The notes under the pieces: model-generated | Databases searched by the model: none | Told to the model about the DNA's origin: nothing | Seen by the model: only the letters and a program-made list of their open reading frames with translations | Source of the DNA: Streptomyces katrae | GTDB lineage: Bacteria > Actinomycetota > Actinomycetes > Streptomycetales > Streptomycetaceae | Length of the DNA stretch: 15,812 nt | Direction: 5' to 3' | Assembly: GCF_000966975.1 (NCBI RefSeq) | Contig: NZ_JZWV01000371.1 | Span: 1-15,812, forward strand | Shown here: positions 1 through 12,901 of the stretch, piece by piece | Position numbering within the stretch: the first letter of the stretch is position 1 | Layout of the letters: every line of letters starts with the position of its first letter | Position numbers and translations under genes: made by a program

Positions 1-14
1 TGTATAAGAGACAG
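1..14 (+). other. Residual Tn5 mosaic-end (Nextera-type) adapter
   Basis: The first 14 bases, TGTATAAGAGACAG, are identical to the last 14 bases of the 19-bp Tn5 mosaic end used in tagmentation libraries. They sit exactly at the window edge, and the sequence that follows is typical high-GC Streptomyces DNA. I infer library adapter left at a contig end rather than a genomic transposon end. No transposase or second end is visible. The base composition (5 of 14 G/C) is unlike everything else in the window. Confidence 0.9.
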
Positions 15-9904: not shown

Positions 9905-9928
9905 CCCGGGAGGGCTAGCCCTCCCGGG
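9905..9928. repeat. 24-bp perfect palindrome across the pimA stop codon
   Basis: Bases 9905-9928 are a perfect uninterrupted palindrome: left half CCCGGGAGGGCT, right half AGCCCTCCCGGG. It contains the pimA TAG (9917-9915) and the codons for the last residues. It could fold into a GC-rich hairpin in the message, acting as a terminator or a 3' stabiliser. No T-run follows on the minus strand, so efficient termination is uncertain and read-through into the LemA-like gene is plausible. Confidence 0.6.
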
Positions 9929-11078
9929 AGAAGCCGAGGCGGGTGCGGAGCGGGACGCGTTCGTCGGCGGCCACGGCGGCCGCGCCGGCGGTGACCGTCT
10001 CGTAGACGGCGAGGATGTCCGCGCCGACCGTCGACCAGTCGAAGCGGCGGACGTGGGCCGAGCCGCGGGCGCTCAGTTCGGCGCGCCGGGCCGGGTCGCG
10101 CAGCAGGGCGACCGCCGCGGCCGCCAGGGAGTCGGCGTCCTCGTTGGCGAAGAGCTCCCCGGCCGCGCCCTGGTCGAGCACCTGGGCGAAGGCGTCGAGG
10201 TCGGAGGCGAGGACGGCCGCCCCCGCGGACAGGGCCTCGACCAGGATGATCCCGAAGCTCTCGCCGCCCGTGTTGGGGGCCACGTACACGTCGACGCTGC
10301 GCAGCAGCCGGGCCTTGTCCTCGTCGGAGACCATGCCGAGGAACTCCACGCGGGAGCGCAGCTCGGCCGGCAGCGAGGCGACGGCCTCCTCCTCGTCGCC
10401 GCGGCCGGCCACGAGGAGCCGTACGTCGGGGCACTCCGCCACGATGCGCGGGAAGGCGGCCATGAGCACCGGCAGGCCCTTGCGGGGCTCGTCGATGCGG
10501 CCGATGAAGCCGAGGGTCTGCCCGCCCCACTCGGGCTTGGGGTCGGCCTTCGCGAAGAAGTCGACGTCGACGCCGTTGGGGATGACCACGGCGTCCCCGC
10601 CGAGGTGCTCGACCAGGGTGCGCCGGGCGTACTCGCTGACCGCGATCCGGGCGCTGATCTTCTCCAGCGCCGGCTGGAGGATCGGGTACGCGGCGATCAT
10701 CGCCCGCGAGCGGGGGTTGGAGGTGTGGAACGTGGCCACGATGGGTCCCTGCGCCGCCCAGCAGGACAGCAGTCCGAGGGAGGGGGAGGCCGGCTCGTGG
10801 ATGTGGATGACGTCGAAGACCCCGTCGTGCAGCCAGCGCCGTACCCGGGCGGCCGACAGGAAGCCGAAGTTCAGGCGGGCGACGGAGCCGTTGTAGGGCA
10901 CCGGGACGGCCCGTCCGGCCGAGACCACGTAGGGGGGCAGCGGGGTCTCGTCGTCCGCGGGGGCCAGCACCGACACCTCGTGGCCGAGCCTGATCAGGTG
11001 TTCGGCCAGGTCGCGGATGTGGAACTGGACGCCGCCGGGTACGTCCCAGGAGTACGGGCAGACGATGCCGATCTTCAC
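9915..11078 (-). CDS. pimA: Phosphatidylinositol alpha-mannosyltransferase PimA
   Basis: PimA is a GT4-family, GT-B fold enzyme that transfers mannose from GDP-mannose to phosphatidylinositol on the inner leaflet, the first step of PIM synthesis. The 387-residue product opens with KIGIVCPYSWDVPGGVQFHI, where GGV (15-17) binds the nucleotide sugar. ATFHTS includes His118. GRIDEPRKG gives Arg194 and Lys200, and NTGGESFGIILVEAL includes Glu273 and Glu281 of the EX7E motif. The full length matches mycobacterial PimA closely as I recall it. The GTG at 11078 shares one base with the acyltransferase TAG (TAGTG), so it is translationally coupled. The palindrome at 9905-9928 covers its stop. The reading frame is also open upstream; see the note on the frameshift. 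Confidence 0.92.
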   Translation of the reverse strand: MKIGIVCPYSWDVPGGVQFHIRDLAEHLIRLGHEVSVLAPADDETPLPPYVVSAGRAVPVPYNGSVARLNFGFLSAARVRRWLHDGVFDVIHIHEPASPSLGLLSCWAAQGPIVATFHTSNPRSRAMIAAYPILQPALEKISARIAVSEYARRTLVEHLGGDAVVIPNGVDVDFFAKADPKPEWGGQTLGFIGRIDEPRKGLPVLMAAFPRIVAECPDVRLLVAGRGDEEEAVASLPAELRSRVEFLGMVSDEDKARLLRSVDVYVAPNTGGESFGIILVEALSAGAAVLASDLDAFAQVLDQGAAGELFANEDADSLAAAAVALLRDPARRAELSARGSAHVRRFDWSTVGADILAVYETVTAGAAAVAADERVPLRTRLGFSREG

Positions 11079-11902
11079 TACGGGCGCTCCTCCAGGTCGT
11101 CGAGCCACAGCCGCTGGAGCATGTGCCAGTCCTCCGGGTGCTCGGCGATCCCCGAAGCGAAGGCGTCGGCCACCGACTGGGTCATGGCGGCCGTCTTCTC
11201 GGCCCGGGTCCCGGTGCCGGGCACCTCCACCTCGGGGTGGATCCGGCCGTACATCTTCGGGGCGTCCCCGTAGGACAGGGTGACCGGCAGCAGGGCCGCC
11301 CCGGTCTGCTGGGCCAGCAGCGCGGGCCCGGCGGGCATCCGGGCGGTGGCGCCGAAGAAGTCCACCTCGACCCCGGAGGAGGACAGGTCCCGGTCCGCGA
11401 CCAGGCAGATCAGGCCGCCGGAGCGCAGCCGGCGCGCGAGGGTGCCGAAGGCGGCTCCGCCGCTGTGCGGCAGGACCTCCATGCCCAGGCTCTGCCGGTA
11501 GGCCACGAAACGGTCGTAGAGGGACTCGGGCTTGAGCCGCTCGGCGACCGTGGTGAAGGGAACGCCGACGTGGCCGGTGACCCAGGCTCCGGCCAGGTCC
11601 CAGTTGGCCAGGTGCGGCAGGGCCACGATCACGCCCCGGCCGGAGGCGAGGGCCTCGCGCAGGATGTGCTCGTCCTTTATCGACACGTCCGTGCCGAACC
11701 GCCGTGGGTCCATGGCGGGCAGCCGGAAGGATTCCATCCAGTAGCGCATGTACGAGCGCATACCCGCCTGCGAGAGGGCGCGCAGCCGCTCGGGGCCGGC
11801 GTCGGGCACCACCCGGGCCAGGTTGGACTCCAGGCGCAGCACGCTCTTTCCGCGCCGCTTCCAGGCCACGTCCGCGATCTTGCGGCCGAGGGCCGCCGCC
11901 AC
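11078..11902 (-). CDS. Phosphatidylinositol mannoside acyltransferase (PatA/HtrB-like), 5' end frameshifted
   Basis: This member of the LpxL/HtrB-type acyltransferase family, by its position between pgsA and pimA, probably acylates the mannose of PIM. The open frame gives 274 residues starting VAAALGRKIADVAWKRRGK. The HX4D motif is PHLANWD (His97, Asp102), and ICLVADRDLSSSGVEVDFFG (about 155-174) and MPAGPALLAQQTGAALLPV follow, all family-typical. The likely native start is the ATG at 11993 (TGATG overlap with the pgsA stop), which would encode MGSGKDKLVDGLYG and then LGWAGVKKLPEPV. A 13-bp tandem duplication at 11938-11963 separates the two parts into different frames. The GTG at 11902 has no ribosome-binding site. 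One repeat copy fewer gives a 300-residue protein of normal length. It may be a true mutation or a sequence error. Confidence 0.85.
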   Translation of the reverse strand: MAAALGRKIADVAWKRRGKSVLRLESNLARVVPDAGPERLRALSQAGMRSYMRYWMESFRLPAMDPRRFGTDVSIKDEHILREALASGRGVIVALPHLANWDLAGAWVTGHVGVPFTTVAERLKPESLYDRFVAYRQSLGMEVLPHSGGAAFGTLARRLRSGGLICLVADRDLSSSGVEVDFFGATARMPAGPALLAQQTGAALLPVTLSYGDAPKMYGRIHPEVEVPGTGTRAEKTAAMTQSVADAFASGIAEHPEDWHMLQRLWLDDLEERP

Positions 11903-11993
11903 CGGCTCGGGCAGCTTCTTGACGCCCGCCCAGCCGAGCCCGTACAGCCCGCCCGTACAGCCCGTCGACCAGCTTGTCCTTGCCGCTGCCCAT
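11903..11993 (-). pseudogene. Displaced 5' coding segment of the acyltransferase
   Basis: The ATG at 11991-11993 overlaps the pgsA TGA by one base, as expected for a coupled start. It encodes MGSGKDKLVDGLYG before the 13-bp duplication. Beyond it, the correct sequence (LGWAGVKKLPEP) is found in the frame of the 11902 ORF, not in the ATG frame. In the ATG frame the product turns into Arg/Gly/Pro-rich sequence typical of an out-of-frame high-GC read. This segment is therefore the N-terminus of the acyltransferase, cut off by a +13 frameshift. Confidence 0.8.
11938..11963. repeat. Perfect 13-bp tandem duplication causing a frameshift
   Basis: Plus-strand GCCCGTACAGCCC occurs at 11938-11950 and again at 11951-11963 with no spacer. 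The base after the second copy continues the unit for one more G. The coding-strand unit is GGGCTGTACGGGC (reading Gly-Leu-Tyr-Gly in the ATG frame). The extra 13 bp is not a multiple of three. Two adjacent identical copies are the classic product of slipped-strand replication or of an assembly collapse/expansion. Confidence 0.9.
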
Positions 11994-12655
11994 CAGAGCG
12001 CGCCGCCCTCGGCGGGCGCCGCCGCGTCGGCCTCGGCGGCCTCGCGGCGCACCGTGACCACCCGCTGGACCAGCGTGACGAGCGAGCCCGCCGCCACCAC
12101 CCACAGGGCGATGGGCAGCAGCACGCCGATCCACGAGGGGACCCCGAAGGTCTGCAGCCCGGACAGGCCGGCCGCGACCAGCGAGATCACCAGGCGCTCG
12201 GCGCGCTCCACGAGCCCGTTGACGGCCACCGGCAGGCCGATCGCCTCGCCGCGGGCCTTGGTGTACGAGACCACCTGGCCGCTGGCCAGGCAGAAGATCG
12301 CCACCGCGCACAGCACGTTGTCGTTCCCGGAGCCCGCGTACCAGAGCGCGAGGCCGCCGAAGATCGCCGCGTCGGCCACCCGGTCGAGGGTGGAGTCGAG
12401 GAACGCGCCCCAGCGGCTGGAGACCCCGGCCTGGCGGGCCATGTTCCCGTCCACCAGGTCCGAGAAGACGAAGAGGGTGATGGTGATCGTGCCCCAGAAG
12501 AACTCGCCCCGGGGGAAGAAGACCAGCGCCCCGGCCACCACACCGGCGGTGCCGATCAGCGTGACCGCGTCGGGGCTCACCCCCCGACGGAGGAGAAATG
12601 CGGCGAACGGCGTGAGAACACGCGTGAAGAACGCACGCGCGTACTTGTTCAGCAT
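11993..12655 (-). CDS. pgsA: Phosphatidylinositol phosphate synthase (CDP-alcohol phosphatidyltransferase)
   Basis: The enzyme joins CDP-diacylglycerol to inositol 1-phosphate, giving phosphatidylinositol phosphate, the precursor of PI and PIMs. The 220-residue membrane protein carries the complete CDP-alcohol phosphotransferase motif D-x2-DG-x2-AR-x8-G-x3-D-x3-D: Asp66, Asp69-Gly70, Ala73-Arg74, Gly83, Asp87 and Asp91. Several hydrophobic spans follow between about 95 and 200, with a charged Ala/Glu-rich tail. The frame is open to 12793, but the ATG at 12655 (MLNKYARAFFTRVLTPFAAF) is the family-like start and has GGGAAGG just upstream. The actinobacterial naming is pgsA1/pgsA; substrate choice (inositol phosphate rather than glycerol phosphate) is inferred from the pimA neighbourhood. 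Its TGA overlaps the acyltransferase ATG. Confidence 0.92.
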   Translation of the reverse strand: MLNKYARAFFTRVLTPFAAFLLRRGVSPDAVTLIGTAGVVAGALVFFPRGEFFWGTITITLFVFSDLVDGNMARQAGVSSRWGAFLDSTLDRVADAAIFGGLALWYAGSGNDNVLCAVAIFCLASGQVVSYTKARGEAIGLPVAVNGLVERAERLVISLVAAGLSGLQTFGVPSWIGVLLPIALWVVAAGSLVTLVQRVVTVRREAAEADAAAPAEGGAL

Positions 12656-12718
12656 GGCCTTCCCAGAGGGTCGCTGGGCCGCGCGGCCACCACGGCCACC
12701 GGTCGTAGCCAGCACCCC

Positions 12719-12740
12719 GGGTGCGGGGCGCCCCGCACCC
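12719..12740. repeat. 22-bp perfect palindrome in the pgsA / EF-G-like divergent region
   Basis: Bases 12719-12740 are a perfect palindrome with half-site GGGTGCGGGGC and no spacer. It lies 64 bp upstream of the pgsA start, inside the likely pgsA leader, and 162 bp upstream of the EF-G-like start. It may be a regulator site or an RNA hairpin. The rest of the 246-bp gap holds only the promoter candidates described separately and a ribosome-binding site before 12902. Confidence 0.55.
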
Positions 12741-12788
12741 TCCGGTTCGCCCGGCGCGGCCCTTCGGCCATCCCCGTCCGGGTGCCCC

Positions 12789-12817
12789 TTCACGCGCCCG
12801 TCCGTGACCGGTACGAC
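12789..12817 (+). promoter_or_regulatory. Candidate promoter for the EF-G-like gene
   Basis: TTCACG (12789-12794) and TACGAC (12812-12817) are separated by 17 bp, matching the -35 at 4 of 6 and the -10 at 3 of 6 positions. It predicts a leader of about 80 nt before the ATG at 12902. Found by eye only. Confidence 0.3.
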
Positions 12818-12845
12818 GTATGGACGCAGTGTGACGCCAGTGCAA
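12817..12845 (-). promoter_or_regulatory. Candidate promoter for pgsA
   Basis: On the minus strand TTGCAC (12845-12840) and CATACG (12822-12817) are 17 bp apart, a fair -35 (TTGnAC-like) and a weak -10. The element is back to back with the plus-strand candidate at 12789-12817, sharing base 12817. It would give a leader of about 155 nt carrying the palindrome at 12719-12740. Confidence 0.3.
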
Positions 12846-12901
12846 AGCTCGAAGGACCCCGATCACCCTCCTTCACCGCGACACCGGGAGGCACGAGCAT
12901 C

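Follow-up and report, generated by a model that had tools for sequence, protein, structure and literature searches.

Phase variation by tandem repeats is a known class of system. In a 15,812-bp contig of Streptomyces katrae, called the window here, a tandem repeat early in a coding sequence resembles this class in its position and in having a unit (13 bp) that is not divisible by three, and differs from it in that there are two copies only and that no copy-number variation is seen in the relatives examined. The coding sequence belongs to the family of phosphatidylinositol mannoside (PIM) acyltransferases (NF005919 and PF03279), which it resembles in that its in-frame part scores above the family cut-off and from which it differs in that, in the assembled sequence, codons 1 to 14 do not share the frame of the remainder.

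A different kind of parallel comes from genome assembly. The scaffolder LINKS is said to leave a gap of one where it joins contigs that overlap, and ignoring contig overlaps is said to risk gene fragmentation (PMC8352505). The draft assembly that contains the window is like a join of this type in that a short terminal overlap is duplicated, with or without one N, and in that genes are split. It differs in that the cited account of LINKS concerns linked reads and that there is no N at 11938-11963, unlike at the N-marked joins elsewhere in the draft.

The acyltransferase gene, its repeat and its neighbours

The repeat, the genes around it and the reading frames that result from it are as follows.

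11938 to 11963, no strand assigned: 13-bp unit present twice (from the sequence), likely an unmerged contig overlap
11078 to 11993, minus strand: PIM acyltransferase gene as assembled, extra 13 bp included, with ATG at 11993 and stop TAG at 11080-11078 (NF005919)
11078 to 11902, minus strand: residual open reading frame (ORF) in the acyltransferase frame, 274 aa, with a GTG start at 11902 (from the ORF list)
9915 to 11993, minus strand: two-copy frame from the ATG, 692 aa, crossing the acyltransferase out of frame into pimA (from translation)
9915 to 11078, minus strand: pimA-like glycosyltransferase gene, predicted start GTG at 11078-11076, with a 1-base overlap with the acyltransferase stop
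11993 to 12655, minus strand: phosphatidylinositol phosphate (PIP) synthase gene, predicted start ATG at 12655, its stop overlapping the acyltransferase ATG (NF045883)

The unit GCCCGTACAGCCC occupies 11938-11950 and again 11951-11963, the two copies being adjacent and, on a direct check of the sequence, without mismatch, just as the first-pass annotation had described them; the period-13 run at the site is 27 nt long. Is such a repeat unexpected? Order-1 resampling of the window produced no perfect tandem with a unit of at least 13 in 40 trials, and on this result an origin by chance alone was set aside. Tandems of this kind are nevertheless present in real Streptomyces DNA, with nine per 395 kb in two near-finished genomes of the genus and eight per 307 kb in draft control loci. 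Thus, a 13-bp tandem alone is not rare in Streptomyces DNA, and the unusual part is that a conserved gene is broken.

The in-frame part of the acyltransferase reached 418.4 bits against NF005919 in a profile search (cut-off 209), and the downstream frame is predicted from this match to be a phosphatidylinositol mannoside acyltransferase, the identity that had been proposed for it at the outset. The gene also has the placement of its family, sitting between the PIP synthase gene and the pimA-like gene with start and stop codons that overlap. Its ATG at 11993 on the minus strand shares bases with the stop of the upstream gene; this overlap had been recognised in the first pass, but the gene named pgsA there is that of phosphatidylinositol phosphate synthase (NF045883).

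With two copies of the unit, the frame that starts at the ATG departs from the acyltransferase past codon 14, and the family frame is open downstream of the repeat. The frameshift suggested earlier is real in this sense, but the product is not truncated, its frame being open to the end of pimA. Along 9915-12866 of the minus strand there is an open frame of 983 codons, which starts 5′ of the PIP synthase gene and continues through pimA; the acyltransferase read out of frame therefore meets no stop before pimA. Upstream of pimA, the two-copy ATG frame has no match to a Pfam family. The ORF that remains in the family frame has the GTG at 11902 as its first start codon, as had also been stated. 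At the position of this GTG the best 120 database matches listed have alanine in 111 cases, valine in seven and other residues in two, and as a start codon it is, judging from these residues, not conserved.

The locus in related genomes and in protein records

Alignment of the locus to related Streptomyces, a check that the first-pass annotation had proposed, gave a uniform result. All 29 loci of a first set of relatives aligned over the repeat, and all 80 draft loci of a second set, are 13 bp shorter than the window and hence single-copy (the two sets, 109 aligned loci, have some genomes in common). Relatives carrying both copies together with another start, which had been named as the finding that would speak against a frameshift, do not occur among these loci. 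A conserved two-copy form with a different start was rejected on the single-copy state of the relatives and on the alanine found at the residual GTG in 111 of the best 120 matches listed.

The two-copy pattern was also searched for in 392 genomes of the genus, among them that of the window. Three matches were obtained, none of them without mismatch except that of the window; the two other genomes match with three mismatches, on contigs other than those that carry their acyltransferase loci. The plasmid records searched gave no match. Direct inspection of 13 further relative loci revealed a perfect 13-bp tandem in none of them (0/13), and each of the 11 that were translated has one LYG motif. 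A length test on these 13 loci gave mixed differences (−1, −4, −6, +14) from an unreliable alignment, which we attribute to divergent start regions that align poorly.

The best database match, P0004, is a protein of 300 aa that is 100% identical across the 290 aa searched. Its N terminus is that of the one-copy form and reads through the repeat site, which puts on record the 300-residue product that removal of one copy had been predicted to give. P0004 is also one of the seven valine sequences at the residual GTG position. It is recorded on two contigs, the longest of 33,342 bp. With its 15,812 bp the window makes up an entire contig, and a search of its genome gave a single full-length match to the acyltransferase locus; at least one of the P0004 contigs therefore comes from another assembly, and P0004 may derive from the same strain or from a sister strain. 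The single copy that would be expected behind an unmerged overlap is found both in the relatives and in this matching protein record.

Duplications, single Ns and adapter remains in the draft

The draft assembly of the window amounts to 8.05 Mb in 1873 contigs. It was sampled as 101 pieces, namely the window and 100 further contigs (whole or first 20 kb), among which C1100, C37, C193, C164 and C1820 were taken owing to weak matches to the locus and the remainder by number. Readable letters, 435,473 bases, are present in 52 of the 101 pieces, the other 49 being contigs of less than 3 kb that read as N. The near-finished controls comprise 395,000 bases in 20 stretches from two genomes of one and two contigs. 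Perfect tandems with a unit of at least 13 number 16 per 435 kb in the sampled draft, against 9 per 395 kb and 8 per 307 kb in the near-finished and draft controls, so the surplus is only mild.

A frame test was applied to perfect tandems with a unit of 10 to 60 that is not divisible by three. It flagged three of 13 in the sampled draft, none of 10 in the 395,000 bases of the near-finished genomes, and one of seven in the 80 draft control loci (L111, position 3670, an 11-bp perfect tandem); three frame-breaking cases per 435 kb against none per 395 kb is a small count. The window's own 13-bp repeat was not flagged, and we think that its closeness to the gene start lets it escape the test. The three cases flagged in the draft are the following.

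L134 (G000:C1100), 10335: 20-bp perfect duplication that splits the gene of a FAD_binding_5 subunit (xanthine dehydrogenase type, xdhB-like)
L153 (G000:C50), 3857: 22-bp perfect duplication that splits ubiX (UbiX flavin prenyltransferase)
L232 (G000:C1601), 4471: 16-bp perfect duplication that splits hisS (histidyl-tRNA synthetase)

The two halves of each of these genes match one and the same Pfam family, and at each of the three sites a single copy is present in 10 of 10 relatives. The defect proposed for the window is in this way met with elsewhere in the same draft. One copy in 10/10 relatives is likewise the state at a 24-bp in-frame duplication (L232, G000:C1601, 337). For a 22-bp perfect tandem of the same draft (L230, G000:C365, 5043), the relatives match only weakly and briefly over the repeat. 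The assembly contains another hisS, whose frame is open (G000:C1168, 119-1372; L336), either a paralogue or a contaminant, and the essentiality of hisS as a proof of artefact is weakened by it.

Four single Ns lie inside the sampled draft contigs. Those of C37 and C305 are flanked by exact overlaps of 8 bp and 7 bp, respectively, and at the C305 join exactly the 7 bp and the N are absent from 10 of 10 relatives (a comparison made at the C305 site alone). The N of C1660 is followed by adapter sequence and has no shared overlap, and that of C650 has 1 bp shared; these two are not overlap joins. Among the controls, there is one single N in the 80 draft control loci (L054) and none in the near-finished stretches.

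Adapter remains are a further trait of this draft. A 19-mer of an adapter, which we take to be Nextera (Tn5 mosaic end), occurs 24 times, 20 of them at most 16 nt from a contig end, and its backwards control occurs 0 times. The window itself begins with part of it:

1 to 14, plus strand: last 14 adapter bases, TGTATAAGAGACAG, at the contig end, shared with the adapter 19-mer

An internal adapter copy was observed at L283 1501 (G000:C72 10802), with the same 9 bp, GGCCGGGGC, on both flanks. The same 9 bp on both sides is presumably what remains when a cut at a single Tn5 site yields two library fragments.

Origin of the second copy

The first-pass annotation had left the choice between a real lesion, a reversible switch and an assembly error. 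Replication slippage could have produced a real mutation private to this isolate, by which the PIM acyltransferase would be inactivated and PimA perhaps fused to 305 extra residues. The exactness of the 13-bp repeat would suit such an event, perfect tandems of this size do exist in real genomes (nine in 395 kb), and the two-copy ATG frame is open into pimA, so that pimA could still be translated. We nevertheless consider a private mutation very unlikely: the one-copy P0004, identical across the 290 aa searched, stands on another contig, three more conserved genes are damaged alike in this draft but not in the 10 relatives examined, and unmerged overlaps are found at N-marked joins. Could the tandem then turn PIM acylation on and off reversibly, by slippage that adds or removes one copy? 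The records do contain this protein sequence in its one-copy as well as its two-copy form, yet the exact two-copy pattern occurs in one of 392 genomes, the window itself, and in none of the 109 aligned loci. Two copies of a 13-bp unit are, moreover, a minimal repeat, and a titles-level literature search for such a switch turned up none. Variation in the copy number of the tandem between strains was not found, two copies being present in the window alone among the genomes examined, and this analysis yielded no positive evidence for a switch, which is extremely improbable. Scarcely credible, too, is the idea of a genuine two-copy form that replaces the 300-aa acyltransferase by a 692-aa fusion ending in PimA, with ribosomes reading out of frame from the acyltransferase ATG and meeting no stop; were it true, one 13-bp slip would turn acylation off and let an extended PimA begin at the upstream start.

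The second 13-bp copy is very probably an assembly artefact, an overlap of contig ends that was left unmerged, with the acyltransferase gene intact in the organism. Among the causes considered from the start, assembly error is favoured over the lesion and the switch, which are left unsupported, because P0004 has one copy, the relatives are single-copy (109/109 aligned loci) and this draft shows like defects both at N-marked joins and in further genes. Two neighbouring contig ends with 13 shared bases would have been butted together, their overlap remaining unmerged, and an assembler, scaffolder or gap-closing step may have been the cause at 11938-11963. An intact gene would encode a PIM acyltransferase of the usual 300 aa and would overlap both neighbouring genes at its start and stop codons. 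One cause, contig ends placed end to end with shared sequence unmerged, fits the duplications, the N joins and the adapter facts.

Users of this draft should distrust any apparent frameshift that falls on a short, perfect tandem duplication; hisS, ubiX and the xdhB-like gene would likewise be called pseudogenes. The value of the finding lies in this caution, which extends to adapter sequence at contig ends. Biologically the locus is ordinary, and its acyltransferase gene is probably intact.
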